Source: a virus
IMG/VR virus record: IMGVR_UViG_3300037234_000278
Span: 1-43,107 of that record
Length of the DNA stretch: 43,107 nucleotides
Reading direction: 5' to 3' (one strand)
In this document: positions 2,856 to 40,825 of the stretch, piece by piece
How the letters are laid out: each line of letters starts with the position of its first letter
How positions within the stretch are numbered: the first letter of the stretch is position 1
Position numbers and translations under genes: made by a program
Notes under the pieces: generated by a model
What the model was told of the DNA's origin: nothing
The model's database searches: none
Seen by the model: only the letters and a program-made list of their open reading frames with translations

Positions 2856-2906
2856 TGTAAGTTCCTTGTCAGTTTGATTTTAAATTTAAACTTGATTAAA
2901 TAGAGA

Positions 2907-2934
2907 AGCCCTCCCCGCGTTACAAGGGAGAGCT
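2907..2934 (-). terminator. Intergenic hairpin, possible terminator or attenuator
   Basis: On the minus strand AGCTCTCCC pairs with GGGAGGGCT (9 bp, one G-U) around a 10-nt loop. It lies between the candidate DNA-binding protein and the nucleotide-hydrolase fusion gene. What follows is only weakly U-rich, so it may attenuate transcription or protect mRNA ends rather than fully terminate. Confidence 0.45.
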
Positions 2935-2941
2935 GATTTAT

Positions 2942-3676: not shown

Positions 3677-3741
3677 AGTCATCCTTTTGCTCTATGAGCT
3701 GTCTTGCCCGACATTGGGCGTTGTTTGTTGTTTGTTTCCTG

Positions 3742-3984
3742 CTACTCAGCAAGGTCTTCAAGTTTCTTCATCTCTTTCGCCAGGGCGTACAGATTTAAAT
3801 CGTTCTTGAACAGGTGTCCACTTATGAACAACATTAGAAATGAGTGCCAGTAGCCCAGTACTGGAGCCGCAAACACTGCAACCATTGTATAGTTCCACGC
3901 CCACATTACGAGTAACGGGATTAGGAAGAGTGCGCACGTTGCACTTATAATGTATTTCCATTCAGCTTTCTTTAATTTTGTCAT
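3742..3984 (-). CDS. Small two-helix membrane protein
   Basis: The protein is 80 residues, with two hydrophobic segments (about residues 12-30, IISATCALFLIPLLVMWAW, and 33-55) and a charged C-terminal helix (ALAKEMKKLEDLAE). It starts at an ATG preceded by AAGGAC. It lies just downstream of the phosphoesterase, separated by 15 nt. Two membrane helices and a charged tail would fit a holin, an inner-membrane host-takeover protein or a superinfection-exclusion protein. Nothing in the sequence decides between these. Confidence 0.75.
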   Translation of the reverse strand: MTKLKKAEWKYIISATCALFLIPLLVMWAWNYTMVAVFAAPVLGYWHSFLMLFISGHLFKNDLNLYALAKEMKKLEDLAE

Positions 3985-3999
3985 CTCTGTCCTTTTTTT

Positions 4000-5277
4000 T
4001 TATATCGACACTATCTCAAGTATCGTTCGTTTTTCTACAGTCTTACTAACTGATTTAGCGTTGTAAGCCTCTAGTTCTGCTTCAATTGGGTAGCCCTCGT
4101 TGTTTGCTGTTTGTAAATCTATTAAGATCGGCATAACAAAGTCCTCACCAATGACCAGAATGTTTTGTCCTGCTTTACCAGCAAGGTTTAGTTTCTTAGC
4201 TGCATAAGCGTTTGACCCCACCAATGAAGAACCCCGACTAACAAAGTCGCCATTCATAGTAGTGTGGATGTGTCCGCAAAGAGCGTAGTCAACAATCTCC
4301 CCACTCTCCAAAGCTATTCGACCTACAGTAGCTTGAGTAGCCTTCTGTTGATTGGATTGCCCTGCAAAGTCGTGGGATAAATGCAGATTCATTGACCATG
4401 TTTTTTCATCGTCACCTATCTGAATTATTGTCTCGACTGTATTATAGCTAATAAAATTAATGTTGTCAACCCCAGCCATCAATCTTTTTAACATTGCTAC
4501 GATTGTGAAGTCATAGTTGTTAGAAAGTACCTCATCGCTGAATGCCATCTCTTGATCTGCACGGCCTTCATTACCTAATACAGACACCACTTCCACCTTC
4601 TGGAATGTGTGAGCAATATCGAGTAACATGTGCTTGTAGAGATCGACAGCCAGTACGGTAGCCTTAGCTCGGTTAGTTGACTGACTTAGTAGTTCATCCA
4701 GTCGTCTATCTGAGTTAAGCAAATCGCCCGTAAAAGCCACCAACACCTTCACGACACCTTGGGCTAGTAAGACTCGGGTTGCTTCAGCTATGAACTTCTT
4801 CAGTCTCTTAGCTGCAATCTTAAAGTCGAACTTATTCCCAGGCATGTCTACCAACTCATTGAGGTGGTTGTCAGTAACTTGGATAACTCCGATACGTTTA
4901 CCATCCCCTACGGCTAGAGGAGAGAACTCGTAAGAAGAGATTACGGAAGCATGTTTGTCCAGCATTTCCACAATCTTCGATCCGTACTCACTAACAGCAT
5001 TAGTATATCTGGCTTGGCCTCGGTAGCCCTTGTTCTTGATGCGCTCCATATCCCGCGACTTCTGCAGTGAGTCAGCGATAGAAATGTTACAGCTTATTAA
5101 GTCGGCATCATGCAGCAGGTTTGGGGCTTTAATGCCGCGTTTGATCGCCTCACTACGGTATCTCTTCATAGTAGCTGGTTTAACCTGCATGATGTCGGCG
5201 GCTAGGAAGAGGTTCCCCTTCTCCTTAGCCAGTACTTCCATCGCTTCTTCTAGTTTATCGTCTTTGAATAATTTCAA
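4000..5277 (-). CDS. Calcineurin-like metallophosphoesterase with N-terminal HTH
   Basis: A two-metal phosphoesterase of the SbcD/Mre11-like superfamily. I choose a TTG start at 5277 because a strong AGGAGG lies 7 nt upstream, inside the stop of the HNH gene; the ATG at 5319 would need a long overlap with that gene and lacks a good site. This gives 425 residues. Residues of about 15-50 look like a helix-turn-helix (LAADIMQVKPATMKRYRSEA). The metal motifs follow: TDNH (D136, H138), GDLL (about 184), GNEG (about 235, where GNH is usual), LHLSHD and CGHIH. It may act as a DNA or RNA nuclease or phosphatase in replication; the substrate is unknown. Confidence 0.85.
   Translation of the reverse strand: MKLFKDDKLEEAMEVLAKEKGNLFLAADIMQVKPATMKRYRSEAIKRGIKAPNLLHDADLISCNISIADSLQKSRDMERIKNKGYRGQARYTNAVSEYGSKIVEMLDKHASVISSYEFSPLAVGDGKRIGVIQVTDNHLNELVDMPGNKFDFKIAAKRLKKFIAEATRVLLAQGVVKVLVAFTGDLLNSDRRLDELLSQSTNRAKATVLAVDLYKHMLLDIAHTFQKVEVVSVLGNEGRADQEMAFSDEVLSNNYDFTIVAMLKRLMAGVDNINFISYNTVETIIQIGDDEKTWSMNLHLSHDFAGQSNQQKATQATVGRIALESGEIVDYALCGHIHTTMNGDFVSRGSSLVGSNAYAAKKLNLAGKAGQNILVIGEDFVMPILIDLQTANNEGYPIEAELEAYNAKSVSKTVEKRTILEIVSI
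4441..4469 (-). promoter_or_regulatory. Consensus sigma-70 promoter inside the phosphoesterase gene
   Basis: On the minus strand TTGACA (4469-4464), exactly 17 bp, then TATAAT (4446-4441): a perfect match to both boxes. It lies within coding sequence and points to the genes downstream (membrane protein, candidate DNA-binding protein, hydrolase fusion, exonuclease, methyltransferase). Activity is not shown by sequence alone. Confidence 0.6.
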
Positions 5278-5285
5278 AATTCCTC

Positions 5286-5882
5286 CTATTTCGCATCCAC
5301 CACATCCAAATACTTCCATCTATGCTCCCCAGCGATACCCATTCCCGACCCCATGTTAGCTTCACAAGCTTTCATAAGTGTAAATCGCGGAATCGTATAA
5401 AACTTAGAGGCTTCACGGATTGAAGGAAAGGATCGAATTCGTTCCCATTTCTCGGTGTAGGCTACTACAGCCCGATAGTGATTACGTGTTCCAGAATACT
5501 TCATTAATTGGGACTGGACGTCCACATACTTGGCGTCGGCCCAGTAGAGATTTCCAAAGAAGCAGTTGTTACCATCGCCGTCACGATGAATCGCTACTGG
5601 GGTTTGGTGGTCATCTGGAGGAAGACCATTATAGATCCGGCAGACGATATTATGGAGCTTGAATGTTTCATATCCCCCGCTTTCAACTTCCAGACTAACT
5701 GTTTTGGTTTTAATATCTGTGTCACAGACTCCGATAGGTACTTCCCGTACTTTACCAGTCCCCATGAAATCGACATTAAATACCTGCCCTTGCTCCGTAA
5801 CCCAGTATCTATGCGTGATACCGAGCGATGTTTCTTGAATATTGGAGGAGAACATTGGGTGAAGTGGTCTTAGTTTTCTCAT
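5286..5882 (-). CDS. HNH homing-type endonuclease with C-terminal NUMOD-like DNA-binding motif
   Basis: A 198-residue site-specific DNA endonuclease of the HNH_3 type. The catalytic core AIHRDGDGNN...GNLYWAD is at residues 97-116, with H99, N105/N106 and N111. The C-terminal segment RSFPSIREASKFYTIPRFTL (about 152-171) resembles the NUMOD1 helix-turn-helix used by homing enzymes. It stands free between DNA polymerase and phosphoesterase with its own promoter at 5926-5954, and its stop codon forms part of the next gene's ribosome site. Free-standing HNH genes often insert beside polymerase genes. Whether it still homes is unknown. Confidence 0.85.
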   Translation of the reverse strand: MRKLRPLHPMFSSNIQETSLGITHRYWVTEQGQVFNVDFMGTGKVREVPIGVCDTDIKTKTVSLEVESGGYETFKLHNIVCRIYNGLPPDDHQTPVAIHRDGDGNNCFFGNLYWADAKYVDVQSQLMKYSGTRNHYRAVVAYTEKWERIRSFPSIREASKFYTIPRFTLMKACEANMGSGMGIAGEHRWKYLDVVDAK

Positions 5883-5925
5883 AGGTGGTTGCTTCCTTAT
5901 TTAGTTTAAGTTGTCTTCTGTCTCT

Positions 5926-5954
5926 AATGTAACCCCTCGGCTACCAATTGTCAA
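5926..5954 (-). promoter_or_regulatory. Leftward sigma-70 promoter for HNH/phosphoesterase genes
   Basis: Minus strand TTGACA (5954-5949), 17 bp, TACATT (5931-5926), located between the polymerase stop and the HNH start. The bases after the -10 (TTAGAGACAGAA) resemble those after the promoter at 9926-9954. Confidence 0.7.
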
Positions 5955-5967
5955 GACTTATTTATGT

Positions 5968-8109
5968 TTAACTGAAAATAGTTTCCAAAAGTGTCTGTAA
6001 CTCCTCATCCTTACTAGGCATTGGCTCCAAATACTGTTTCAATTGATGGTAGTATTTGTGTCCTTTACCTTCCACCCAAGTGTGATCGTGGTCATGGATG
6101 TCGATGTCTAACCTAATGTCCAGCTCCGCACCGATAACCGTCCGTACAGCCTCTAACATACAGTCAGCCATTATCCCCCTGACCTCACTTACATCTTCAT
6201 CTTTGGCCACCCCATATAGCGCATCATGTAACGGGGCGATCAAGCGGATGGCCTTTGCGTGACATAGATCAACAGCCTCGCGCATAATTACCGCACCTGT
6301 TCCCTGAGTCGGAGTATTCTTCACAGAGAGAGCGTTATCGTTATCCCCTAGAATAGCCCAGCCGTCCCATAGAGTGAGAACCTTCTCAGTCTTATACTTC
6401 AGCCACAATTCGTCCAACCATTGCCAGTAGCGCGGATAGGTCATCTTATGGAGGTTAATTAGTCTCTTAGCTTCCATAGGTGTGATTACCTCACCCATAT
6501 CTGCTGTAAGTTTAATAGCTAGGTTCTCAAAGCCCATTCCGTACTGAAGTCCTAGAGTTGTTGACTTGAATAGCCCACGTTGTCTCTTAGCCTCCTCATA
6601 CATCTCCTCCATTCCCTCGGGAACTGGCTTATCACCCTTTACAATTGATGGATCTGCCTCTTCAGGCACGGCTCCTGCTTTCTTAGCAAAGTAGAGGTAC
6701 GGATCACCTGACCTGTATGCTGCAACCATATTCGGATCGTTGGCTAATACCGCAGCGATCGCGAACTCTTGAGACGCATAGTCAATGGCAATAATCGTCT
6801 CACCCTTCTTAGGTACAATCAGGCAGCGAAGCCAAGAACTCATCGCTAAAATGAAGCGGGAAGCCTTGGGAGCATTCCTGCTCGTCTGTGTGCCGTATAA
6901 TCCAAGGAAGGTTCTAACCCTATCATCCGAACCAACAGAGTCAAAGAAGTCAGCCTTACCCTCATCAGGCTCCTTAAACCACCTGAGCTGATTTATGGAC
7001 TTAGTGGCCTGTTTGTATGCTGCAATCTCTGGAATGCCCTCATACTTATCTAAAGTCTTCTCAGCGCGACTTAGCTTGTCTGTGGGAAGTTTGGTGTCCT
7101 TATTTATGGTTCTGGGCCACTTATCGTACACGTCATCACCAAGTGATTGGATGAAGGTCACAAAGGCATCGTACTTATTAACCCACTCTCCCTGCAGATT
7201 CTTACCCTTAGGTCGATCCTTAACAAAGAACGGATAGCTCTCGTCAACCAGCGTCTGAATGATAGTCTCTCGGACATGTGCGAAGTTCAGTCTAAGATTC
7301 CAAGCAGCCTGACGATTAAGTGGGCATCCTTCCTGCTCCATCTTAGCACCTGAGGCCATGAATCTACCACGCTTATACATGGCTCGGAGTAATTCCTCTT
7401 TGGACATCTTGGTCAACCGAAGCAACATGTGCCATTGCTTAATAAACACATTGGGCAGAGGCATAACATCTGACGTGCAATAATCCGTGATCTGAATCTT
7501 ATCATTGGGTCCGAAGTGTTCAGGGGCTGAAATAATCAGATCCCGCATCTTAGTCTTATGTGTGGTGTCAATGCAAATTTCCAAATGCAGAGCTACACAG
7601 TCAGCCATTCCCATTCCAACTGCCGTGTTATCCTTACCCTTATTCAGAGCCTTTACAAAATGTTTAGGTGTTGAATAATGGATTCGCCCGTGCTTTGGGT
7701 AAGCTCCGTACTCACATTCATTGTTGTTGTATGTTAGTTGGCGATGTTCAGCATAGATGTCAATCCAGTTGTATTCGTGGGGGTCTAAGTACAGTGCCAG
7801 CATTGATCTAGCTTCAGCAGTAGCGGCGTATGCAAATAGAACTACGTCATCCCACTGCTCCAGATACCCTACAAGTTCGCTTTCCTGCTGATTGCGGTGT
7901 AACCAGAATTCCCTTACCTCTCCGTTATGGTCGAGGGTTGAACAGCAAACTAGATTGAGCATAGGCTCGTTGGAACTGTTGTACTCAAAGTCTAGGAAGA
8001 TGAAGGGCTTACCCACTATCTCACTCACTTCCCCTAGGGCTTCCAGGTCTGGGATTTTGTTCTTGAATTGTTGTTTTAGTTCTTCTGGGGTCTTCACACC
8101 TCCTCCCAT
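5968..8109 (-). CDS. Family A DNA polymerase with 3'-5' exonuclease domain
   Basis: The replicative polymerase, 713 residues. The exonuclease domain (about residues 30-230) shows DFE at 40-42 and the Exo III pattern YCTSD at 210-214. The polymerase domain shows TQTSR near 407-411, motif A (IDYASQEFA, catalytic D443), motif B (KSTTLGLQYG, K515 and Y523) and motif C (LHDA, H628 and catalytic D629). Motif C ends in Ala where Glu is usual in Pol I. The ATG at 8109 has AAGGTG 4 nt upstream. An in-frame GTG at 8097, overlapping the upstream stop in GTGA behind GGAGG, is an alternative start. No separate clamp or primase gene was recognised. Confidence 0.93.
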   Translation of the reverse strand: MGGGVKTPEELKQQFKNKIPDLEALGEVSEIVGKPFIFLDFEYNSSNEPMLNLVCCSTLDHNGEVREFWLHRNQQESELVGYLEQWDDVVLFAYAATAEARSMLALYLDPHEYNWIDIYAEHRQLTYNNNECEYGAYPKHGRIHYSTPKHFVKALNKGKDNTAVGMGMADCVALHLEICIDTTHKTKMRDLIISAPEHFGPNDKIQITDYCTSDVMPLPNVFIKQWHMLLRLTKMSKEELLRAMYKRGRFMASGAKMEQEGCPLNRQAAWNLRLNFAHVRETIIQTLVDESYPFFVKDRPKGKNLQGEWVNKYDAFVTFIQSLGDDVYDKWPRTINKDTKLPTDKLSRAEKTLDKYEGIPEIAAYKQATKSINQLRWFKEPDEGKADFFDSVGSDDRVRTFLGLYGTQTSRNAPKASRFILAMSSWLRCLIVPKKGETIIAIDYASQEFAIAAVLANDPNMVAAYRSGDPYLYFAKKAGAVPEEADPSIVKGDKPVPEGMEEMYEEAKRQRGLFKSTTLGLQYGMGFENLAIKLTADMGEVITPMEAKRLINLHKMTYPRYWQWLDELWLKYKTEKVLTLWDGWAILGDNDNALSVKNTPTQGTGAVIMREAVDLCHAKAIRLIAPLHDALYGVAKDEDVSEVRGIMADCMLEAVRTVIGAELDIRLDIDIHDHDHTWVEGKGHKYYHQLKQYLEPMPSKDEELQTLLETIFS

Positions 8110-8267
8110 GTGTCACCTTCCTTCATCAGACGTATCTTTGGTGTCGGCTGTCCCGATATACACCACGATTGCGCTAGGGCTGTAACTATCCCGTAGTTAT
8201 TAACCACCACCTGAGCACCGCAAGCCGGGGTGTTCTCAAATCCGTGTTCACCTTTGGTTATTTTCAA
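8094..8267 (-). CDS. Hypothetical 57-residue protein (TTG start)
   Basis: Translated directly from the sequence; I do not recognise it. It starts at TTG 8267, which overlaps the stop of the 29-residue gene (TTGA) and has a G-rich site (GGGGGTGGG) just upstream. It ends inside the polymerase start region with a 16-nt overlap. The product begins MKITKGEHGFENTP and ends MKEGDTWEEV, with three Cys/Trp-rich turns. The open frame without stops and tight coupling on both sides argue that it is real. Confidence 0.6.
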   Translation of the reverse strand: MKITKGEHGFENTPACGAQVVVNNYGIVTALAQSWCISGQPTPKIRLMKEGDTWEEV

Positions 8268-8353
8268 TATCCCACCCCCGCTGCTATCCCGAGACCAACT
8301 CCAAGACAGAACCAGAATAAGAATGCTAGTTTTATTTTCACTTCGTAGTTCAT
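8264..8353 (-). CDS. 29-residue single-pass membrane microprotein
   Basis: Translated directly: a charged N-terminus (MNYEVKIK) then one hydrophobic helix of about 20 residues (LAFLFWFCLGVGLGIAAGVG) with a GxxxG-type pattern, ending in Tyr. An AAGGAA site lies upstream. It sits between the tRNA-like element and the 57-residue gene, with which it overlaps by 4 nt. Function unknown; its shape is that of a small membrane regulator or toxin-like peptide. Confidence 0.55.
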   Translation of the reverse strand: MNYEVKIKLAFLFWFCLGVGLGIAAGVGY

Positions 8354-8375
8354 TTTTCTTTGTTCCTTAAAGAAA

Positions 8376-8475
8376 GCACGGGGAGGGAATCGAACCCTCA
8401 ATGGATGGCGGCCTATCGTCCTAACCATCTCTAGCCTTATCAGCTTAAGCCGTTACCTATTCAGCTTCTCCGTGC
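8376..8475 (-). tRNA. tRNA-like gene, isotype undetermined
   Basis: The 100-nt minus-strand element has a 6-bp acceptor stem (GCACGG with CCGTGC; the seventh pair is A-C), a D-arm (AGC/GCT with GG and TAAC in the loop) and a textbook T-arm (GAGGG TTCGATT CCCTC). The middle is irregular. A 3- to 5-bp anticodon stem (AGC/GCT) would give loop TGATAAG, which lacks U33, while GATGG/CCATC forms a perfect 5-bp stem with a 16-nt loop either as a long variable arm or as an odd anticodon arm. CCA is not encoded. It is either a degenerate class II tRNA or a tRNA mimic; I cannot assign an amino acid. Confidence 0.65.
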
Positions 8476-8483
8476 AGTTTGAT

Positions 8484-8687
8484 CTATTCGTCCGAGTCTT
8501 CATCAGGCATGTTGAATTCGTCAACAATAGACTGGCAACGATACATCCCCTCAAGTTGAGCCTGGACGTATTGTTGACCATGTGAACCGTATGCTCTTCG
8601 GCGTTTACCTTCAGCCAGCATGTTCTCAGTCCGTAGAATTAGAAATGAAATCTTCTTACTAGCCAGAACTAGTTTATCATCCGCCAT
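8484..8687 (-). CDS. Hypothetical 67-residue protein
   Basis: A small, mostly helical charged protein with a basic patch (EGKRRRAYGSHGQQ) and an acidic C-terminus (PDEDSDE). Family not recognised. The ATG at 8687 lies inside the end of the preceding gene (11-nt overlap), showing coupling. The tRNA-like element begins 8 nt downstream of its stop. Confidence 0.7.
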   Translation of the reverse strand: MADDKLVLASKKISFLILRTENMLAEGKRRRAYGSHGQQYVQAQLEGMYRCQSIVDEFNMPDEDSDE

Positions 8688-8898
8688 CCTGTAACTCCTC
8701 GTCCATTACTATTCCGTGATTCTTCTCAAACCCTTCTGGGCATTTGTAGAACATCCAACCAGCGTAAGACCCGTCGTTAAGATCCTCGTTAGATTCGTTG
8801 AACTTCACCACTTTGAACCCCTTGACTGGGGTGTAGGCGATAACGCCCTCCCCGAAGTCTGGATGGTGGACTTGCTGTCCGTCAGTAAGTTGCTTCAT
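8677..8898 (-). CDS. Small Tudor/CarD-like beta-barrel protein
   Basis: A 73-residue protein. Residues 11-22 (HHPDFGEGVIAY) repeat the pattern seen at the N-terminus of the hydrolase fusion at 2082-2855 (HPKYGRGRII), suggesting a small beta-barrel fold, here as a stand-alone gene. The start overlaps the upstream 330-residue gene stop by 4 nt. A nucleic-acid or protein binding role is inferred from the fold only. Confidence 0.7.
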   Translation of the reverse strand: MKQLTDGQQVHHPDFGEGVIAYTPVKGFKVVKFNESNEDLNDGSYAGWMFYKCPEGFEKNHGIVMDEELQDGG

Positions 8899-9887
8899 TT
8901 TACTACTCCCAACTTAACATATGTGCCTTCACGAGTGGGGGAGATTTCAACATCCTCCACTGCTACTCCTTCAAGCTGCCAACCTGCGTTTTCTTCGTAG
9001 CTTAGTACGGGGTTATATAGTAACTCACCATCAGTCGTATCCTTGAACCAGTATCCAGCCGTTATCAGACCGGCTACTTGCTCGGGGGTTCGGACTGTTT
9101 CCTTAACCCGCTCAAGCTGACCTTCAAGTACCCATTGATTTGGGTGATCGTCTAATGCTTTTACGATATACTTGTCGTCATGTCCTACCACTCTAGTGAT
9201 CGTTGTGATGTCCCCGATGCGCAGGTAGTGGTGAAACAAATCATTGTTGATTATCTTTACGCTGTCCCCAACTTTGAACTTAGGTTCAGGTTTGATTGGC
9301 TCGATGTTAACTTCCTTGCAGAAGTCGGCGTAACTAGTAACCCCGAAAGTGGGTGTGATGAGGTAGCCGTGGGATTGGTCAAGGAATACACTGTAATATT
9401 CTTTATCTGTTGGGCCGCTCTGACTGGTCTTGTAATTCAAAGTCCCGCCATCAAACCACTCTGCCAACTGCTCCATCTGCTTGCTGTTCTCGCACTTGAT
9501 CGAGATTCCTAGGAAAGCTAGGCGGGGGTCGGCAGGTACTTCCACCTTCTCAAGAGCGTACCAAGCCTCATACATCTTCGTAGCTGTTGGGACTCTTTTA
9601 AACTCAGGGCAGTAGGAGTTATCGTCATAGATGAACTCCACTACATCCCCTTCCTTGAAACAGTGAGCGTTCTCTAGCACTTTAAACGTGTCTCCGATTT
9701 TATGTGGGCATTCCTTCTGTATCTCAACTCCAGTTAATTCTTTACTCGAATTCGGGTCGATGAATAAGTATCTGTTAGGGGCTGAGAATCCTGCAAACTT
9801 TGCGTAATACCAAATTTCCTGCCCCTTAAACCAGTAATATGTCCCTACTGTGTACTCTACGCCTTCAATCTTAATCTCTGTTGCCAT
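8895..9887 (-). CDS. Hypothetical multi-domain phage protein (330 residues)
   Basis: Family not recognised, but it appears modular. Residues 1-45 hold a Trp/Tyr-rich unit (YYWFKGQEIWYY), a second unit (FKEGDVVEFIYDD) follows near 95, and residues of about 125-190 hold a domain (GISIKCENSKQMEQLAEWFD ... SYADFCKEVNI) also found in the 300-residue protein at 42051-42953. A KOW/SH3-like unit (FKVGDSVKIINND) is near 200 and a final Trp-rich unit near 275. AAAAGG lies 8 nt before the ATG. It is the first gene behind the promoter at 9926-9954. Function unknown; the modules suggest binding rather than catalysis. Confidence 0.8.
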   Translation of the reverse strand: MATEIKIEGVEYTVGTYYWFKGQEIWYYAKFAGFSAPNRYLFIDPNSSKELTGVEIQKECPHKIGDTFKVLENAHCFKEGDVVEFIYDDNSYCPEFKRVPTATKMYEAWYALEKVEVPADPRLAFLGISIKCENSKQMEQLAEWFDGGTLNYKTSQSGPTDKEYYSVFLDQSHGYLITPTFGVTSYADFCKEVNIEPIKPEPKFKVGDSVKIINNDLFHHYLRIGDITTITRVVGHDDKYIVKALDDHPNQWVLEGQLERVKETVRTPEQVAGLITAGYWFKDTTDGELLYNPVLSYEENAGWQLEGVAVEDVEISPTREGTYVKLGVVK

Positions 9888-9925
9888 CTTTCATTCCTTT
9901 TTTGTTTAACTTTGTTTCTATCTCT

Positions 9926-9954
9926 AACTTAACTAATTGTTGGTTGGTTGTCAA
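9926..9954 (-). promoter_or_regulatory. Leftward sigma-70 promoter upstream of the 330-residue gene
   Basis: Minus strand TTGACA (9954-9949), 17 bp, TAAGTT (9931-9926). The -35 box overlaps the stop of the helicase gene. It is followed by TTAGAGATAGAA, similar to the bases after the 5926-5954 promoter. Confidence 0.7.
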
Positions 9955-11645
9955 GTCTTTTCTTTTATCTCGCTAATATATTGCATAATAGTCGGGTCCT
10001 CAATCATCGCAGCGACTCCTCCAGCCTTCTCTACGTTGAGTTTAATGCCTCGTATCACGCTTGCACGTTTGCCTGAGCTGTCAATCCCCCTGCCTTCACT
10101 GTAGAATGGAACCTCTGACTCTAAATGTTTCTTAAAATCAGAATATTTAAAGCTCGTGTTCCCTCTACCATAAAGAATGCTGAAGATATTTTGCATTACA
10201 GCCTTACCTATTACCGCGTCCTCATCTTGGTCGAAGTAGTTGTTAAGTATGTACTCATATCGCTCAGTATCTGGAGTTGTAATCGACTCAAACATGTCCT
10301 CATCTTCTTCCTGAGACAGAATGATATTGTTTCGGCTCGGGCACAATTTCAAATAGGCTTCCTTACATGAGGCAATAAATGCCGGTAATTGGTCTACAAG
10401 TTTCCCCTCGATCACATGACTTGGTGTTCCGTGGGTAAACATCTGAACAATCTTCTGATCCTTGATGTCCTTATTCGGTCGGAGTTTAAGAAGCAGCACG
10501 CGAGACTTCTCATGCACCTGAGTCGTGTCAATTTCTGGTTTGTAGTTCGATGCGATAATCATTTTGCAATGAACTTTCCCCATGAATGAACTCTTGTTCT
10601 TAAACTCAATCGGTATATTATCCCCTCCAAGAATCTGATGAACAATACCCTTCCTAATTAATGAGGTGTTCTTGTTATCGGGACTTGTCAGTAGTCGTTT
10701 GCCGTAAACCGCAGATCCGAAGAACTGGCTGTCGGCTCCACCTTGATCGTTCATCGAGACTGCTCCAGATTTCATCATGGTTACAAGTGCGTTAATGATC
10801 GTGGTTTTACCTGTCTGCCCGTTATCCAGCAGCCACAGGGCTTGCCTGGCCGTGTTCTCGCTATCGAAAATTGAGTACATGTAGGCTTTGAAGATATCCC
10901 GATCATAGTCCGTGTAAAATCTCCAGTTGATCCAGTTAGTCCACTCCTCAAAATTACCAACCTCATTATCCCGCTTGTCATTGTCAATGTAGACGAAGCA
11001 GGGAGCCGTGGGGTCGTTCGTAATAATCTTAGGGTGTTCAATCATGTAGTCAACAGAGCCTAGCAGATATTCCATAGTCTTCTTCAAATATTCAGCTAGT
11101 GAATACTTAGGGTATTTAGGGATACTGCCTTTAGCTGCTGACTTGGTATTCATATCCCAGACTAATAACCCTGCATATTCCTTGGCCTTGTAAGCTTCGG
11201 TTACATACTTCAGATATTGCTCAGACACATTCCTATAAGCAGATTTGCAGGAGGCTAGGACGGTAAACACATTGTCAGGATCTTCCACAACCTTATATGT
11301 GTTGGATTTCCAGTGGTCACGGAAGAAGATGATCTGAGTTCCGGCTGGGGAAATAGCCCATCGGAGGTTAAGTAGAAGATACCAATCCTTATCGGTTAGA
11401 GTGTTAAAGGGCGATTCAACCATTCCGTCAATGATGAAATCTACCTTGACGTCTGGGTTAGCCTCGACTGCCCATTGTTCAACTAGGCCATTTATGCTTT
11501 CCAGGCTTTCCCCTGACGCCCCACCATTGGACATTAGGTCGATGGAAACTTCCATTAGGGTTGAGGGTATCCTCTTACCGTTCTTGGTTATAGTCCCGTC
11601 TGGCTTTACATTGTAGTTCTGTGAGAGCCAATCAAATAGGTTCAA
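9951..11645 (-). CDS. SF3-type replicative helicase (D5-like AAA+ domain)
   Basis: The 564-residue protein probably unwinds DNA at the phage fork. The C-terminal half has Walker A GQTGKTT at 276-282, motif C/sensor IIASNYKP at 363-370 and an arginine-finger candidate EKSR shortly after, as in SF3 (D5/poxvirus-type) helicases. A clear Walker B Glu is not obvious near KRLLTSPDNKN, which is unusual. The N-terminal 200 residues may hold a degenerate primase domain, but I see no definite primase motif. It starts at TTG 11645 behind GGGGG, inside the end of the preceding small gene. No other helicase is present in the window. Confidence 0.87.
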   Translation of the reverse strand: MNLFDWLSQNYNVKPDGTITKNGKRIPSTLMEVSIDLMSNGGASGESLESINGLVEQWAVEANPDVKVDFIIDGMVESPFNTLTDKDWYLLLNLRWAISPAGTQIIFFRDHWKSNTYKVVEDPDNVFTVLASCKSAYRNVSEQYLKYVTEAYKAKEYAGLLVWDMNTKSAAKGSIPKYPKYSLAEYLKKTMEYLLGSVDYMIEHPKIITNDPTAPCFVYIDNDKRDNEVGNFEEWTNWINWRFYTDYDRDIFKAYMYSIFDSENTARQALWLLDNGQTGKTTIINALVTMMKSGAVSMNDQGGADSQFFGSAVYGKRLLTSPDNKNTSLIRKGIVHQILGGDNIPIEFKNKSSFMGKVHCKMIIASNYKPEIDTTQVHEKSRVLLLKLRPNKDIKDQKIVQMFTHGTPSHVIEGKLVDQLPAFIASCKEAYLKLCPSRNNIILSQEEDEDMFESITTPDTERYEYILNNYFDQDEDAVIGKAVMQNIFSILYGRGNTSFKYSDFKKHLESEVPFYSEGRGIDSSGKRASVIRGIKLNVEKAGGVAAMIEDPTIMQYISEIKEKT

Positions 11646-11787
11646 TTTTGTGATCCCCCTTTACCGATTCAAGGTATTGTTTATCTACAGCCGCCCTAAC
11701 TGAGGGAAAGGCTTCGTAAAGTTGTCTGTGTAGTTGTGAGTCTTCCATGTCGTGATCCTTCATTTGAGTTATAATGTCTCCAGTCAA
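11632..11787 (-). CDS. Hypothetical 51-residue protein (TTG start)
   Basis: Translated directly. The TTG at 11787 follows immediately after the stop of the 63-residue membrane gene, with GGGGG 7 nt upstream; the in-frame ATG at 11763 has no suitably placed site. It ends 14 nt inside the helicase gene, so the two are coupled. The product is charged and helical (MKDHDMEDSQLHRQLYEAF within it) and not recognised. Confidence 0.55.
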   Translation of the reverse strand: MTGDIITQMKDHDMEDSQLHRQLYEAFPSVRAAVDKQYLESVKGDHKIEPI

Positions 11788-11979
11788 TTAAATTCCCCCA
11801 ACAATCACGTCCAAAGTAAGCCACACTCCAGCCAGAGCACCTCCCGCGCATAGCAGGAGCGTCCCGTAGATTGTATCCTCAAGCGGTGTTGTGCATTGTG
11901 TGCCCATTAGCCTGAGTACCGCCCATCCTAGTATTCTTGCAACGATCACTCCAGCCACTATGAGTAGTAGGGCTAGCAT
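11788..11979 (-). CDS. Small two-helix membrane protein (63 residues)
   Basis: Nearly all hydrophobic: helix 1 is at about residues 2-24, followed by a short loop containing CTTPLEDT, and helix 2 is at about 38-60. The start overlaps the upstream stop by 7 nt. Two short helices and a small polar loop resemble holin-like or other small phage membrane proteins; no assignment is possible. Confidence 0.7.
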   Translation of the reverse strand: MLALLLIVAGVIVARILGWAVLRLMGTQCTTPLEDTIYGTLLLCAGGALAGVWLTLDVIVGGI

Positions 11980-12200
11980 GGGTCCCCCACCTTAATCACC
12001 TGATTATGAAACTGCCGTGTCCCGTCTCTGCTACCGTCATCAATCTTCAGCATCTTACTTGTTATCTTCTCAACGGTCCCTATTTTTAGTGTTCGGTAAT
12101 GTAGCTGTATGTAAACTATACTGTCGCCTACTTCCAGCTCATTTCCCATGAAGTCTTTTGCTGTCAATCCTTCTTTGCCTGTTAGTTCTTGGGTGCTCAT
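11973..12200 (-). CDS. Hypothetical KOW/SH3-like small protein (75 residues)
   Basis: Residues 21-60 (ELEVGDSIVYIQLHYRTLKI then GTVEKITSKMLKI) have the Gly-Asp-x-V pattern and alternating beta strands of a KOW/SH3-like barrel that often binds RNA or protein. The start overlaps the upstream gene by 4 nt (ATGA). Specific function unknown. Confidence 0.7.
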   Translation of the reverse strand: MSTQELTGKEGLTAKDFMGNELEVGDSIVYIQLHYRTLKIGTVEKITSKMLKIDDGSRDGTRQFHNQVIKVGDPC

Positions 12201-12421
12201 GATTTAGATTCCTTATTCGGAAGATGGGATAGATAAATACCCCAACTAGTCGTACCATATTTACGCTCAATCCACCACCGAGGCAATGGATACTTGAAGT
12301 CATAATCTAACTCACCATATCCAGATATTATTGAGTCTTCATCAATAAACGTGGAAACACTTGGAGTAAATCTAAGTACCCAAAGAATTACAGCGATTGC
12401 AGTCATTATAAATTTACTCAT
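12197..12421 (-). CDS. Hypothetical membrane-anchored protein (74 residues)
   Basis: I start this at ATG 12421, which overlaps the upstream stop in ATGA; a longer frame back to 12469 lies wholly inside the upstream gene and is unlikely. It begins MSKFIMTAIAVILWVLRF, a signal peptide or membrane anchor, followed by an acidic and aromatic exported-looking domain. Not recognised. Confidence 0.65.
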   Translation of the reverse strand: MSKFIMTAIAVILWVLRFTPSVSTFIDEDSIISGYGELDYDFKYPLPRWWIERKYGTTSWGIYLSHLPNKESKS

Positions 12422-12633
12422 CCCTCGCCTTCCTTGTTGCTTTGTTCTTCTTCCTCTTCTAGCTCCCACCGTTTAATCTTAAATACCGCCTCAGATGCCA
12501 CAGGCTTCACGTAGAGGAAGTCTCCGCCGTTGTCCAGTCTTACTTCGACCTCTAGTTCAGCGTCGGATTGGAGGAAGTTCAATAGTTGCCTGTAGGCGAT
12601 CCCTAGGGGTGAATTTGGTTTAAGTGTTCTCAT
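12418..12633 (-). CDS. Hypothetical 71-residue protein, first gene of the leftward operon
   Basis: A small acidic protein with a Glu-rich C-terminus (RWELEEEEEQSNKEGEG). Residues 25-55 look like beta strands. It is the first gene behind the promoter at 12666-12694 and is coupled to the next gene by ATGA. As first gene of an early-type operon it may be a host-takeover protein, which is inference only. Confidence 0.7.
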   Translation of the reverse strand: MRTLKPNSPLGIAYRQLLNFLQSDAELEVEVRLDNGGDFLYVKPVASEAVFKIKRWELEEEEEQSNKEGEG

Positions 12634-12665
12634 ATTTGCCTTGGTTTAATTCTTGTCCTTCCCTA

Positions 12666-12694
12666 AATCTAATCATTCGGATCGGTCCTGTCAA
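12666..12694 (-). promoter_or_regulatory. Leftward sigma-70 promoter of the replication operon
   Basis: Minus strand TTGACA (12694-12689), 17 bp, TAGATT (12671-12666), about 30 bp before the first start codon. The -10 box is the same as that of the rightward promoter at 13471-13499. Confidence 0.75.
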
Positions 12695-12756
12695 GAGGAA
12701 TTTCACAAATAATTCAATTGAGATTCAGTCTCGGTAGGATTTTAGTTATTTTATGC

Positions 12757-12912
12757 AGATTGAGACTGAGACTCATAAGCGTCAGGGGGTCTAGGGGTCA
12801 AAAGCCATAGTGTTCAAATGTGCACTACTTTTTAGTGATTTGGGAATCCCTTACCGTTACTGGCCTCACGGGCGGGTGTGAGAGATACAGCCAGCTATAG
12901 CACCCCCTGACG
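12757..12912. repeat. Inverted-repeat-bounded element, copy A
   Basis: It begins AGATTGAGAC, then GCGTCAGGGGGTCTA (12779-12793), and ends with CACCCCCTGACG (12901-12912), the inverse of its start, so the ends can pair over 10-11 bp. It contains a 25-nt core (12839-12863, ATCCCTTACCGTTACTGG within it) shared with copy B at 23 of 25 positions. Inside are smaller hairpins: CACTA/TAGTG and the nested CTGGC/GCCAG and CTCAC/GTGAG. Confidence 0.7.
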
Positions 12913-12943
12913 TAGATTAGCCCACGTCGGCTGGGCACACAGG

Positions 12944-13069
12944 AGATTGAGACAGAGTCGCGTCAGGGGGTCTAAAGTGGAATTTTGTAAATCTCATTTG
13001 GGGATCCCTTACCATTACTGGGCGGGAGGTCGGAAAGTCTGTGGGATGTGCAGCCAAGACCCCCTGACG
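12944..13069. repeat. Inverted-repeat-bounded element, copy B
   Basis: It has the same order of parts as copy A: AGATTGAGAC, CGTCAGGGGGTCTAA (12961-12975), the 25-nt core (12997-13021), GCAGCCA and the inverted end GACCCCCTGACG (13058-13069). It is shorter than copy A by about 30 bp. Keeping the ends and core while the remainder diverges suggests selection on those parts. Confidence 0.7.
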
Positions 13070-13209
13070 GGCACGGGACCAGTGTGGGTCTACGTTACAG
13101 CCCGCCAAACGTCAAAAAAGGCCAAATCGACCAGGGGGTCTGGCAACTTATCACTAGAATTTCACGTTTTTTACTTAAATTTAGCTCTTAATACAACGGG
13201 ATTAGCACG

Positions 13210-13232
13210 TCATAAGGGTTATTTACTTATGA
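13210..13232. repeat. 7-bp inverted repeat, possible operator
   Basis: TCATAAG and CTTATGA are separated by 9 nt, a perfect dyad. It lies about 190 bp inside the region read from the leftward promoter at 13416-13444. It may be a regulator site or an RNA hairpin. Confidence 0.4.
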
Positions 13233-13415
13233 TCTGTCATGCTTACGCGATGCTTGCGCCTAGTCTATTCTGTTGTGTGTACGTTCTATATATTGTACAG
13301 CTTCTTGGGACGACAATCCCTTGGGTGTAGTGGGTTCTATTTGCCCGGACATTAGATTACTCGCTGATTTAGGATTTGCACATGCGACAAGCGGGCTGGT
13401 TTCACTACAACAACA

Positions 13416-13444
13416 AATATAGTATACATGTTATTAATTGTCAA
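13416..13444 (-). promoter_or_regulatory. Strong leftward sigma-70 promoter into the gene-free region
   Basis: Minus strand TTGACA (13444-13439), 17 bp, TATATT (13421-13416), a near-perfect match. There is no gene for about 780 bp downstream, so any transcript is a long leader or a non-coding RNA. Confidence 0.65.
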
Positions 13445-13470
13445 TGGTTTGCTCTTTTAGTATTTATCGC

Positions 13471-13499
13471 TTGACAAAGTGGGTGAGTTTGATTAGATT
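13471..13499 (+). promoter_or_regulatory. Rightward sigma-70 promoter of the repair operon
   Basis: TTGACA (13471-13476), 17 bp, TAGATT (13494-13499), ending 36 bp before the first rightward start codon. Its -35 box is 26 bp from that of the leftward promoter, so the two could share one regulator. Confidence 0.75.
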
Positions 13500-13535
13500 G
13501 TATTTATCACAACATTAAACAAATGAAGGAATAGT

Positions 13536-13994
13536 ATGAAGATTAATAAAGAAGATGTTACTTGGGTTGAAGTAAGGGATCACGATGGCGCAAACTGGTG
13601 TAAGCGTATATTACTGCAGACAAATAAAGGGAAAGCATACCAATACTCTTGTGTTGGGAGCATCTGGAAGGACAAATACCTGCAAGGTGACTGCGATTTA
13701 ACTGAGGTTATTTGTGACTGGAAATACATGCGACCACTAACACCAACACCTGAGATGCAGTACCGACCAATGACCAAGTTCGAGATCGCTAAGTTGATTG
13801 ATTCATCACCCACGCTTTGGGTTGGAAGTCCAGAAAAGGATCTAATATCAAAATTCAGCTCCGACAGTGACCACCTAAGTGACAAAGGTGTCGAATCTAT
13901 TGTAGAGGGTGAGAGAATGGTAGCCCCTTGGAACTATTACAGCTATACGTTGGACTACGGTAAAACATGGAATAAATTCGAGACGGAGGTTTAG
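13536..13994 (+). CDS. Hypothetical phage protein (152 residues), first gene of the rightward operon
   Basis: Residues of about 7-65 (VTWVEVRDHDGANWCKRILL ... CDWKYMRPL) form a Trp-rich unit that recurs in phage accessory proteins and resembles the W-rich units of the 330-residue protein at 8895-9887. Residues of about 75-95 (RPMTKFEIAKLID) begin a second segment. AAGGA lies 5 nt before the ATG. The family cannot be named and no catalytic motif is seen. Confidence 0.8.
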   Translation: MKINKEDVTWVEVRDHDGANWCKRILLQTNKGKAYQYSCVGSIWKDKYLQGDCDLTEVICDWKYMRPLTPTPEMQYRPMTKFEIAKLIDSSPTLWVGSPEKDLISKFSSDSDHLSDKGVESIVEGERMVAPWNYYSYTLDYGKTWNKFETEV

Positions 13995-14228
13995 ATGAAC
14001 TACAAGAAAATCCCTGAGATAGAAGAAAACTCCTGCCTAGGGTGTGCTTTCCAAGACGACCCAGATGAATGTGGTGGTTTGATTTGCGGGGACAACTCTA
14101 TATATGTGGAGATATGCCCCTACGACGACCGAACAGAGACATTCAAGTGCGGTGGAGAACTAACTGGGTATGCTTGGAACGGTGATAAACTAAACTTCTG
14201 CCCATTCTGCGGTAAGGCGGTGCGATGA
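13995..14228 (+). CDS. Small zinc-ribbon protein (77 residues)
   Basis: Nine Cys are visible, ending with CPFCGK (about residues 70-75) and starting with SCLGCAF (about 13-19), a pattern that suggests one or two zinc-binding knuckles of the Lar/restriction-alleviation-like type. It starts directly after the preceding stop with GGAGGT 5 nt upstream. Nucleic-acid or protein binding is likely; an anti-restriction role would be a guess. Confidence 0.75.
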   Translation: MNYKKIPEIEENSCLGCAFQDDPDECGGLICGDNSIYVEICPYDDRTETFKCGGELTGYAWNGDKLNFCPFCGKAVR

Positions 14229-14482
14229 GAAACCTAATCAAAAGAATGTGGGCCCCCTTCAAAATAGGCCGACTAATCAAACAGATGGTCAAGCTTGCAG
14301 ACAAAGGGGAAACCTACGAGATAGATAAACTCCTAGAAGAATTCAAAGCCTGGGGTGCAACTGACGAAGAGATAATGATCCTGACTGACTGTGCTTATCA
14401 GTATGCCGTAGCTAAAGGGATTAACCCTGAGCACTTGAAGCATATTGACATGAGGGAGGAGGATCGGATCTATGGAGCATAG
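14225..14482 (+). CDS. Hypothetical helical protein (85 residues)
   Basis: It begins with a basic segment (MRNLIKRMWAPFKIGRLIKQ) that could form an amphipathic helix, followed by charged helices. The start overlaps the upstream stop (ATGA) and the end overlaps the nuclease gene by 11 nt. Not recognised. Confidence 0.7.
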   Translation: MRNLIKRMWAPFKIGRLIKQMVKLADKGETYEIDKLLEEFKAWGATDEEIMILTDCAYQYAVAKGINPEHLKHIDMREEDRIYGA

Positions 14483-14927
14483 CTACAACAAGCTAGCCCT
14501 GAAGAAGCGCAAGCCTAAGAAGGCAATCAAGGTGAAGGCCAAGAGGAACGACTTCGAGCATGAGTACCAAGTCGAGGTAATCAAGTGGACCAGAAAGCAC
14601 GCGGGTATCTTCCCAGGTGTCGAAGGGATCTACTCAGTACCAAATGGGGCTCATGTTTCACCTCAGGAACGGGGCAGGCTTATAAGGGAAGGGATGAAGA
14701 AAGGAGTCTCGGATCTTGAACTTCCGGTAGCTAAGGGTGGATACTTCGGCCTCTACATTGAAATGAAATGTAAGGGTGGGACTACATCCAAAGACCAGAT
14801 TGCTTTCGGGGAGTTCGTAACAAACCAAGGGTATCTATTTAAGGTCTGCTGGAGTGCAGAGGAAGCAATTGCAGATTTGATTATTTACATGAATATGAAA
14901 CAAACAAAAGGAGGGGAGACCCTATGA
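14472..14927 (+). CDS. VRR-NUC domain nuclease
   Basis: A 151-residue PD-(D/E)XK-type nuclease of the VRR-NUC family, common in phages and possibly structure-specific (FAN1-like). The family pattern is visible: SVPNGAH near residue 56, GVSDLEL near 77 with the catalytic Asp, YIEMKCK near 92 with the E-x-K pair, and a Gln (SKDQIAF) about 10 residues later. The N-terminus is very basic (KKRKPKKAIKVKAKR), suiting DNA contact. GGGAGGAGG precedes the start. It is grouped with ligase and HAD phosphatase, so it probably acts on branched or nicked DNA. Confidence 0.88.
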   Translation: MEHSYNKLALKKRKPKKAIKVKAKRNDFEHEYQVEVIKWTRKHAGIFPGVEGIYSVPNGAHVSPQERGRLIREGMKKGVSDLELPVAKGGYFGLYIEMKCKGGTTSKDQIAFGEFVTNQGYLFKVCWSAEEAIADLIIYMNMKQTKGGETL

Positions 14928-15112
14928 GAAAACAAGCAGGAGCGTGGGTTAAGTACAACCCCAAGAAGATAATAGCAGTAGAAGACTACGACCTCTGGGG
15001 AGCCTCAGGAGTCATAACCAAAGAAATCCTGGGGGTGTTCCTAACTAAAGAAATACCCTCGGTGGCGAACAAAATACTAATGGTCAGACGATCAGCAACA
15101 AAGGGGATATAG
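14924..15112 (+). CDS. Hypothetical 62-residue protein
   Basis: A small basic protein (MRKQAGAWVKYNPKKII at the start, MVRRSATKGI at the end), probably beta-rich, with start and stop tightly packed between the nuclease (4-nt overlap) and the ligase (no gap). Family not recognised. Confidence 0.65.
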   Translation: MRKQAGAWVKYNPKKIIAVEDYDLWGASGVITKEILGVFLTKEIPSVANKILMVRRSATKGI

Positions 15113-16474
15113 GTGAATGTATCTAAAATAATCAAAGAAATAAGAGCCTCAGAAGGGGCAACAGGTAAAGCCGAGACTCTAAAGAAGTACAAGGACGACG
15201 AAACGCTTCAGTGGGTGTTGAAGATGACTTACACTAAGCAGATTACTTTTGGGGTTAGACCTGAGACGCTTGACACACTGGAAGACCCTTCACCGATAGC
15301 TGTATCATTTGAGGAAACCCCGATACACCCCCAGAGTCTGCTGGAGAAGTTAGCCTCAAGAGAGTTAGCCGGTAACAAGGCCCGAGAAGCCATCAAGTAC
15401 GCTTTGGACGATACTGTGGCTGAAGATCAGTTTGTATTACTTGGCATCCTAGGTAGAAACCTCAAGATCGACATGAAAGCCAAGTCAATCAACAAAGTAA
15501 TGGGTAAAAACTTCATCCCTGAGACCCCTTACATGGGAGCTAAGTCCTATAACAAGAAGGCCGTAGAGAAGATCTTCGCGAAGCATGACTACGCATATTC
15601 TGAGATTAAAATGGATGGACGCTACATGAACATGATCGTTGAGCCTGATTCGGTTTATCTTGAATCCCGCCAAGGATTAGAAATGGGGCAGAACTTCCGT
15701 GATCACTTCGCAATGAATGGAGTCCTTGAATCGGGTGGGATTGTATTTAATGGGGAATTGACTATCCCAGGAACTTCAAGATACGAAAGTAATGGAATCA
15801 TAGCCTCCTACGTGGCGAATCCTGAGACTCCGATCCTACACAATGTAGTCTTCACCGTCTGGGACAGCCTACCCCTCTCAGCTTACCGTGAAGGTGTTTA
15901 TGACCTACAGAGGACCACAAGGTTGCATGACACAGGATTCCTCCTTAAATGCATCGACAGCCCGTTATTGCAGGTGATTGAGTGGGAAGCTGTATCTTCT
16001 GCAGAGGAAGCTCATGCTCACTATGTTTCTGCAGTATCTCGCGGTGAAGAAGGAACGATCCTTAAGACACCTACAGGTATCTGGAAGGCTGGTAAACCTG
16101 CATGGCAGATCAAATTCAAACCTGTTGAGTTATTTGACTTGAGGATCGTAGGTTACAACTACGGCAAGGCTGGAACTAAGAACGAAAAGGTGATAAGTAG
16201 TGTCAACGTGGAGTCTTCTGATGGGTTAGTGAAAGCTCGCGCTCAGGGGCTGAAAGAAGCCATGATGCAGCACATTACTGACAACCAAGACTCACTGATG
16301 GGGACTATTGTTGAAGTGAAAGGTATTCAGTTATCTTCGGATAGCGACGGTAATTATTCGATAATGAGCCCATACTTCGTTGCACTTAGGGATGATAAGG
16401 CATCAGCCCATAGTCTGGAGGAATGTCAGGCTATTCATGAGGCTAACGTGTCCCTTAATACAGGAGGCAAATAG
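15113..16474 (+). CDS. ATP-dependent DNA ligase
   Basis: A 453-residue ligase of the T4-like class that seals nicks using ATP. The adenylated lysine lies in the motif EIKMDGR (K166). Later motifs are FNGELTI (motif III, about 217), GEEGTILK (motif IV, about 312) and WQIKFKP (motif V, about 331), followed by the OB-fold. The N-terminal 130 residues resemble the helical DNA-binding domain of T4 ligase. The start is GTG 15113 with AAGGGG 7 nt upstream and no gap after the previous stop. The length is close to T4 ligase (487). Confidence 0.93.
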   Translation: MNVSKIIKEIRASEGATGKAETLKKYKDDETLQWVLKMTYTKQITFGVRPETLDTLEDPSPIAVSFEETPIHPQSLLEKLASRELAGNKAREAIKYALDDTVAEDQFVLLGILGRNLKIDMKAKSINKVMGKNFIPETPYMGAKSYNKKAVEKIFAKHDYAYSEIKMDGRYMNMIVEPDSVYLESRQGLEMGQNFRDHFAMNGVLESGGIVFNGELTIPGTSRYESNGIIASYVANPETPILHNVVFTVWDSLPLSAYREGVYDLQRTTRLHDTGFLLKCIDSPLLQVIEWEAVSSAEEAHAHYVSAVSRGEEGTILKTPTGIWKAGKPAWQIKFKPVELFDLRIVGYNYGKAGTKNEKVISSVNVESSDGLVKARAQGLKEAMMQHITDNQDSLMGTIVEVKGIQLSSDSDGNYSIMSPYFVALRDDKASAHSLEECQAIHEANVSLNTGGK

Positions 16475-16475
16475 G

Positions 16476-16697
16476 ATGGTTGATTTTGAAGGAAAGAAGC
16501 TCACCCCAGGCGAAAAGGTTATCGTGGTGTCGCCGCCTAATGGTCGGAGGCATTTGCTCTGGGGCTTGGTCGTAAATACAACCCCGAGAGGTGCTGTTGT
16601 CGAAATACAATTTGAGGAGAAGTGGGACGATAAGTCGTATTTGATAGAGCGTCACTATCTCAGCGAAGCCATATTTAGGAAGACGGTTATGCTATGA
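16476..16697 (+). CDS. Hypothetical SH3/KOW-like protein (73 residues)
   Basis: I start at ATG 16476, which has AGGAGG 7 nt upstream, not at an ATG further back inside the ligase. The product (LTPGEKVIVVSPPNGRRHLL then GLVVNTTPRGAVVEI) looks like a small beta-barrel. It overlaps the phosphatase start by 4 nt. Function unknown. Confidence 0.7.
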   Translation: MVDFEGKKLTPGEKVIVVSPPNGRRHLLWGLVVNTTPRGAVVEIQFEEKWDDKSYLIERHYLSEAIFRKTVML

Positions 16698-17146
16698 AAA
16701 CAAACCTAATAGTAGATATAGACGGCACAGTAGCCAAGGTCGGAGACAGACTCAAACACATTCAACAGGAGCGTCCCGACTGGGATAGCTTCTACAAGGG
16801 GTGTGGAGAGGACGAGCCACATACCGACATACTTCTAATGGCTGTGACGTTGAGTATGAAGCTTAATCTGAGGTTAGTGTTCTGTACTGGTCGCCGTGAG
16901 TTCCACAGGGCTGAGACCGAGGAATGGCTGATGAACCATGCTGTGCTAGGTAGGGGCGAGTACTCCCTACTCATGCGACCAACAGGCGATAAACGACACG
17001 ACACCCAAGTCAAACCCGAGCTCCTGAAGAACGCCGGATTCGATACCGATAACGTGTGGATGATTCTGGAAGACCGTAACTCAATGGTCGCTAAGTGGCG
17101 TGAGTTAGGTTTCCGTTGCTTGCAAGTAGCTGAAGGGGATTTCTAA
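16694..17146 (+). CDS. HAD-family phosphatase, polynucleotide 3'-phosphatase-like
   Basis: A 150-residue haloacid dehalogenase enzyme like the C-terminal domain of T4 polynucleotide kinase. The nucleophile motif is DIDGT (D8, D10), motif II is FCTGR (about 63-67), and the late acidic motif is LEDRNSMV (about 125). The kinase domain is absent. Next to DNA ligase and a nuclease, it probably removes 3'-phosphates so that ends can be ligated; a nucleotide phosphatase is the alternative. The stop (TAA 17144-17146) overlaps the stop of the convergent endolysin gene. Confidence 0.8.
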   Translation: MKTNLIVDIDGTVAKVGDRLKHIQQERPDWDSFYKGCGEDEPHTDILLMAVTLSMKLNLRLVFCTGRREFHRAETEEWLMNHAVLGRGEYSLLMRPTGDKRHDTQVKPELLKNAGFDTDNVWMILEDRNSMVAKWRELGFRCLQVAEGDF

Positions 17147-40552: not shown

Positions 40553-40731
40553 GTCAACCTCCTTAATCCATTAGATATTTCACAAAAGGCTTCTTCAAAA
40601 CTAGCTAGGCTTTCTCCAGAGAATTCATCACAGCCCCATAAGTCTCCAGAAATTACTGCACCTAAAGCAACCTTCGCTTTTTTGAGGGATTCTACCGCCT
40701 CGTCTAATTTTTCATCTGCTGTTGTTTTCAT
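40549..40731 (-). CDS. Hypothetical 60-residue helical protein
   Basis: The start is ATG 40731 with AAAGGAG 8 nt upstream, preferred over an ATG at 40767 that precedes this site. It is helical and acidic (EKLDEAVESLKKAKVALGAV). A 15-bp palindrome (40780-40794) lies about 50 bp upstream. It may be a small regulator or packaging accessory; not recognised. Confidence 0.68.
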   Translation of the reverse strand: MKTTADEKLDEAVESLKKAKVALGAVISGDLWGCDEFSGESLASFEEAFCEISNGLRRLT

Positions 40732-40779
40732 TCTTATTTCTCCTTTATATTCTTGTTCTAAGTTCAATATAACTAATTC

Positions 40780-40794: not shown

Positions 40795-40825
40795 AAATTT
40801 TTTAATTATTTTTAAAAAGCCGTTT

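Follow-up and report, generated by a model that had tools for sequence, protein, structure and literature searches.

A decamer restricted to two distant clusters in a contractile-tailed phage contig: a probable two-part replication origin resembling that of satellite phage P4

For most environmental phages, the origin of replication has not been mapped. The closest described system for the locus considered here is the satellite phage P4 of E. coli, whose annotated record was used as the reference. According to this annotation, crr (4291-4590) is made up of a pair of 120-bp direct repeats with starts 180 bp apart. Type 1 initiator sites occur in both orientations in each repeat, five per repeat, and ori (9310-9413) has another six. 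The P4 alpha protein contacts its origin repeats via a winged helix (PMC4234260). Among the replicons of SF3 proteins, the pRN1 origin is a large stem-loop, and the same was proposed for phage BPP-1; the stem-loop sequence varies among the pRN plasmids, and the structure is kept (PMC4234260). In the record of Bordetella phage BPP-1, a long inverted repeat (L091:26607-26711) was found between the TerS-adjacent endonuclease gene and the SF3 primase gene. This repeat probably relates to the stem-loop that was put forward as the origin in the same paper (PMC4234260).

The DNA analysed in this work, referred to as the window, was the whole of IMG/VR record IMGVR_UViG_3300037234_000278 (43,107 bases). 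The window codes for a contractile-tailed phage with genes for a GpA-type large terminase (TerL), portal, sheath, tape measure, and baseplate, and its replication genes are given in Table 1 together with that of the small terminase subunit (TerS). The genes run leftward from 1 to 12633 and rightward from 13536 to 17146, and the rest are leftward structural genes. The gap between 12634 and 13535 is the only large divergent region of the window. The left end of the record (1-804) truncates a leftward gene resembling a DNA methyltransferase, indicating that the contig is not a complete genome. Judging by gene direction, the leftward operon may continue across the contig ends into the structural genes. 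The GC skew tracked gene direction only and hence gave no independent signal of an origin.

The decamer GTCAGGGGGT was the most over-represented 10-mer in the window, with seven exact copies against 0.077 expected; no 10-mer exceeded five copies in 100 dinucleotide shuffles of the window. The decamer is asymmetric, and its copies, in both orientations, were restricted to two clusters separated by about 28 kb of the contig: cluster 1 (12781+, 12902-, 12962+, and 13059-) and cluster 2 (40827-, 40885+, and 40991+). The sites differ in their flanks, so it is apparently the site itself that is under selection. As a positive control, the same blind 10-mer scan was carried out on P4, for which the top word, ACTGTTCACC, was located at crr and ori only. 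Furthermore, a scan for perfect inverted repeats (at least 12 bp, at least four G/C per arm, spacer of 15-160 nt) returned only 12961/13057 and 40826/40988 in the window. Three exact copies of GTCAGGGGGT also occur in both orientations within about 115 bp of an unrelated viral contig (L059:9996-10110); this trio may be chance or an analogous array.

Table 1. Positions of the repeat elements, promoter-like sequences, and relevant genes in the window.
Feature	Positions	Strand	Remarks
Exonuclease	4000-5319		Replication gene
Family A DNA polymerase	5968-8109	-	Same operon as the SF3 helicase
SF3 helicase (DUF5906)	9951-11645	-	Candidate initiator; modelled C-terminal winged helix
Second leftward promoter-like site	12694-12666	-	Sigma-70-like
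Unit 1	12757-12912
AGATTGAGAC box, copy 1	12757-12766	+
Site 1, CGTCAGGGGGTCTA	12780-12793	+	Initiator-like
Conserved core, copy 1, ATTTGGGAATCCCTTACCGTTACTGG	12838-12863	+
Site 2, CGTCAGGGGGT	12902-12912	-	Inverted; ACCCCCTGACG at 12902-12912
GAGATTGAGAC box, copy 2	12943-12953	+	AGATTGAGAC at 12944
Unit 2	12944-13069
Site 3, CGTCAGGGGGTCTA	12961-12974	+	Begins 181 bp after site 1
Conserved core, copy 2	12996-13021	+	2 mismatches
Site 4	13057-13069	-	Inverted; ACCCCCTGACG at 13059-13069
Site 5, GACCAGGGGGTCT	13129-13141	+	Degenerate; contains a partial motif
Leftward promoter-like TTGACA-17-TATATT	13416-13444	-	11/12
Rightward promoter-like TTGACA-17-TAGATT	13471-13499	+	10/12
VRR nuclease	14472-14927		Replication gene
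ATP-dependent ligase	15113-16474		Replication gene
Site 6, CATGTCAGGGGGT	40827-40839	-
AT-rich spacer	40837-40884		48 bp; 81% AT; enclosed by inverted sites 6 and 7
Site 7, CGTCAGGGGGTCTA	40884-40897	+
TerS	40937-41608	-	phrog_57
Site 8, CATGTCAGGGGGTTTA	40988-41003	+	Within 3' end of TerS gene

Cluster 1 lies in the divergent gap and consists of two units of about 110-133 bp, which are 181 bp apart and span 290 bp. Each unit is formed by two inverted sites around a 26-nt core, and sites 3 and 4 form a perfect 13-bp inverted repeat. The original prediction, made from the sequence of this region, had described two copies with inverted ends and a shared core with two mismatches, and every part of this description was recovered in its place. 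The core copies have 92% identity across 26 nt, and the fifth partial motif expected near 13132 was found as AGGGGGTCT at 13133. Beyond the four decamer copies and the degenerate fifth covered by the original prediction, three exact decamers that it had missed were located beside TerS. The core sequence ATTTGGGRATCCCTTACCRTTACTGG occurs only at 12841 and 12999 in the window, with none expected even at three mismatches. Cluster 1 is GC-rich, its AT content being among the lowest 2.5% in the window. The region had also been called gene-free, which is mostly correct: 12634-13535 is without a credible gene, although an ORF of 127 aa (12947-13330, + strand, TTG start, the only longish one) is present and had no Pfam match. 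A coding explanation based on this ORF was rejected because there was no family match and unit 1 lies outside that frame. Strong sigma-70-like promoters (TTGACA-17-TAGATT/TATATT) at 12666-12694 and 13416-13444 bracket cluster 1.

Cluster 2 (40827-41000) is located just downstream of the TerS gene and partly within its end. By AT content, the spacer between sites 6 and 7 ranks within the highest 0.07% of the window. When 120-bp stretches of the window were compared, the ten richest in AT had their starts at 40691-40801, over or beside this spacer. A near-palindrome, CTACTAATTTAGTAG (40780-40794), stands just upstream of the gene after TerS, beside a TATATT sequence resembling a -10 element, and is a possible operator of a late promoter.

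The 564-aa window helicase matched Pfam family PF19263/DUF5906 (3e-12), which was also detected in P4 alpha (2.5e-9), and the comparison of the helicase with P4 alpha by hhalign gave an E value of 1e-5 and a probability of 82%. When the helicase profile was searched against the PDB, chains named Primase (6e-7) and poxvirus D5 (3e-5) were matched. The AF2 model of the whole helicase was poor (pLDDT 41), and only the C-terminal domain was usable. Modelled alone, this domain had the element order H-E-H-H-E-E, i.e., a winged helix, with a pLDDT of about 62-83. The structures that it matched best were RFX DNA-binding domains (E 0.003 with a probability of 1.00 and E 0.07 with a probability of 0.99). 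In the Pfam search of the window helicase, only DUF5906/Parvo_NS1 was above the cut-off, with neither a Toprim nor a zinc-ribbon primase domain, whereas the same search of P4 alpha detected both Toprim and zinc ribbon. Hence, the window is not classed as a P4-type replicon and is considered only as working like one.

The comparison with P4 concerned both the layout of the sites and the proteins. As in P4, short asymmetric sites occur in both orientations at two distant loci only, cluster 1 resembles crr in having two units about 180 bp apart over about 300 bp, and the window encodes a DUF5906 SF3 helicase with a predicted C-terminal winged helix. The original prediction knew of no described element that matches, but the crr layout of two 120-bp repeats 180 bp apart, with initiator sites in both orientations, matches closely. 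The two systems differ in the sequence of the sites and in their number per unit, which is two in the window and five in P4. The filler has diverged in the window, where direct-repeat identity is confined to the sites and the core, whereas the P4 repeats are 82% identical; moreover, unlike in P4, a 26-nt core stands between the arms. The clusters are about 28 kb apart on the contig compared with about 5 kb in P4, cluster 1 is GC-rich whereas P4 crr is AT-rich, and the window represents a full tailed phage that encodes a family A polymerase of its own. With pRN1 and BPP-1, the window shares an SF3 helicase as the candidate initiator and a large stem-loop. The stem-loop of about 100 nt in those systems lies 3' of the SF3 gene, whereas the stem-loops of the window are found on the 5' side of the helicase operon and next to TerS. 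Furthermore, unlike in pRN1 and BPP-1, the same arm sequence recurs in seven places in the window, indicating that these are sequence-specific sites.

One fully syntenic relative was found, G001 (IMGVR_UViG_3300037234_000187), a 50.7-kb contig with identities to the window of 62% for TerL, 57% for the portal, 56% for the polymerase, and 46% for the helicase. The expectation that relatives keep the ends and core was borne out in part. The GTCAGGGGGT decamer and the core sequence were absent from G001, and its divergent region contained no such repeats. However, its TerS-adjacent gap (650 bp, non-coding) contains two exact GAGATTGAGAC boxes, a duplicated 64-nt core (78%), and a perfect 13-bp inverted repeat, ATTACCACTCTCC, with a 95-nt spacer of 78% AT; this repeat was the only match of the inverted-repeat scan (at least 12 bp) in the whole G001 contig. 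The gap also contains GGCCAAATTGAG, which resembles GGCCAAATCGAC at 13120 in the window. An AT-rich inverted repeat is present at the TerS-adjacent place in both phages, and its sequence differs between them, as is the case for the stem-loop of the pRN plasmids. Features that are located at cluster 1 in the window stand beside TerS in G001. The local alignment of cluster 1 with the G001 element was marginal (4 of 150 random segments scored as well), and 11-mers shared with the window occur elsewhere in G001 at a similar rate. Hence, the homology concerns short motifs only, and no wider sequence homology is claimed. The main link between the window and G001 is the doubled GAGATTGAGAC. The TerS-adjacent gap of G001 also has TTGACA-17-TATATT (L082:5779-5807), identical to the promoter-like sequence of the window. 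A leftward terminator-like hairpin, GGTCGATTTGGCC, followed by TTTTTT, is located at 13110-13132 in the window and is partly kept in G001 (L082:6352-6374).

The two clusters are best explained, with a probability of about 0.55, as a two-part replication origin that is bound by the helicase and works like P4 ori/crr. In the proposed mechanism, the SF3 helicase would bind the asymmetric GTCAGGGGGT at both clusters via its C-terminal winged helix. The AT-rich cluster 2 would melt and is the likelier candidate for ori proper. Cluster 1 would more likely act as a crr-like accessory region assisting cluster 2 by DNA looping, and the polymerase would be supplied from the helicase's operon. An origin, a partition-like site, a regulator array, and a structured RNA had originally been listed side by side, and the origin is the best supported of the four.

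The foremost alternative, itself unlikely, is an operator array in which a phage regulator would bind GTCAGGGGGT both in the main divergent control region and at a late, internal promoter before the small gene preceding TerL. Cluster 1 lies within the sole large divergent promoter region, where promoter-like sites occur on both strands (Table 1), a gene start is located directly downstream of cluster 2, and dispersed asymmetric operators are used by L5-type phages. The stoperators of mycobacteriophage L5 are asymmetric repeats dispersed in non-coding DNA, and in these respects the window sites are similar; however, the stoperators have one orientation relative to transcription and occupy many intergenic gaps, whereas the window sites have both orientations and form two clusters. 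Moreover, none of the sites overlaps a predicted promoter. The sites of cluster 1 are 280-630 bp downstream of the leftward predicted promoter; they precede the second leftward promoter by more than 120 bp and are at least 370 bp upstream of the rightward one. Both orientations also occur within one transcription unit, and no regulator was recognised among the proteins scanned, which were a subset of the ORFs. Next in likelihood, and hardly probable, is a structured RNA, in which the units would form a hairpin-closed non-coding RNA or leader with 13-bp stem arms and the core in the loop, and cluster 2 would form a long-loop hairpin. As RNA, these sequences folded better than shuffles, with z values of -2.4 for unit 1 and -3.0 for unit 2 on the + strand and about -4 for cluster 2 on both strands, and the leftward promoter-like sequence reads through cluster 1. 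However, the folding gain stems from the inverted arms themselves and is found on both strands, units 1 and 2 have different filler and inner helices, and no Rfam 15 family was above the threshold. At least three unrelated pairings share one arm sequence, which also occurs as a lone site inside TerS, indicating sequence recognition rather than pairing.

Cluster 2 adjoins the 3' end of the TerS gene and extends into it, and this position would suit a packaging site, with the decamers bound by TerS in the manner of lambda R sites or pac-type sites. The large terminase belongs to the GpA (lambda) type, the G001 element likewise abuts TerS, and lambda gpNu1 binds several asymmetric R sites. Packaging is nevertheless an improbable explanation: lambda cos is a single place adjoining the start of TerS, and cluster 1, which is larger and duplicated, has conserved cores, and lies about 28 kb away, would be left unexplained. 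An attachment or transposition site, i.e., an attP with arm sites or the ends of a duplicated small mobile element, has a very low probability. The inverted ends and conserved core do resemble the arm and core layout of attP, and the element is present as two tandem copies. However, there are two cores, no target-site duplication was seen, the sites recur at a second place without a core, and neither an integrase nor a transposase was found among the proteins scanned (a subset of the ORFs).

For the two-part origin, the design principle is known from P4 and partly from pRN1 and BPP-1. The two-cluster form in a full tailed phage, with the sites as inverted-repeat arms and one cluster at the terminase, appears to be new, and to our knowledge no such two-cluster variant has been described in the open-access literature. 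It is conceivable, if doubtful, that the origin belongs to an undescribed type that merges two known designs: its sequence-specific sites, placed at two distant loci in the manner of P4, would also serve as arms of large inverted repeats in the manner of pRN1. In the window, the parts would then be divided, some at the replication control region and others at the TerS gap, and in G001 a comparable set would occupy a single stretch beside TerS. If this combined design is true, replication initiation would be coupled to packaging at the terminase locus. If the two-part origin is right, a two-locus origin would be present in a full-sized, lytic-looking phage, and the ori/crr design of P4, known from a small satellite, would extend to an ordinary tailed phage. 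Furthermore, a blind word count combined with an inverted-repeat scan would be able to find SF3-helicase origins without relatives. The results also raise the question of why the putative melting site adjoins the terminase genes in both the window phage and G001.

Wider searches were carried out with the proteins and with the elements themselves. Single-sequence searches of viral contigs with the helicase, polymerase, and TerL returned only near-identical fragments. The exact core search gave 43 matches, about the number expected by chance, none of which had the decamer, and the gapped searches with arm and core gave unrelated coding matches and one near-identical fragment, L058, in which cluster 1 is not covered. 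Because this fragment matches the window at 99.9% identity with zero differences in cluster 2, it was uninformative. No prophage was found in 84,980 genomes searched with polymerase and TerL alignments, and blastn of the region against phages and plasmids gave no relevant match. In Silvanigrella phage CP017838 (L046:4889-4975), a perfect 15-bp inverted repeat with a 57-nt loop, the only one in the record, was located inside a coding gene and was therefore not counted.

Other repeats were observed in G001 and in two further phages. In G001 (L080:75-940), three units of about 265 bp, each with a minus-strand ORF of 60-63 aa, are set among four VCR-like boundaries (TAACAACACCTAAAAACAA...GCGTTA), and no integrase was seen. 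From its sequence, this stretch resembles a small array of integron gene cassettes with attC-like sites, carried by a phage genome; integron cassette arrays have already been reported in virulent phages (PMC9892861). Short repeat arrays were also present in two phages that have an SF3 helicase and whose polymerase is 33% identical, namely, five copies of CGTACCGAAA in G006 (L083:93-200) and four tandem copies of the 11-bp AGTTGAGTATG in G002 (L085:4137-4185), both of which are possible iteron origins.
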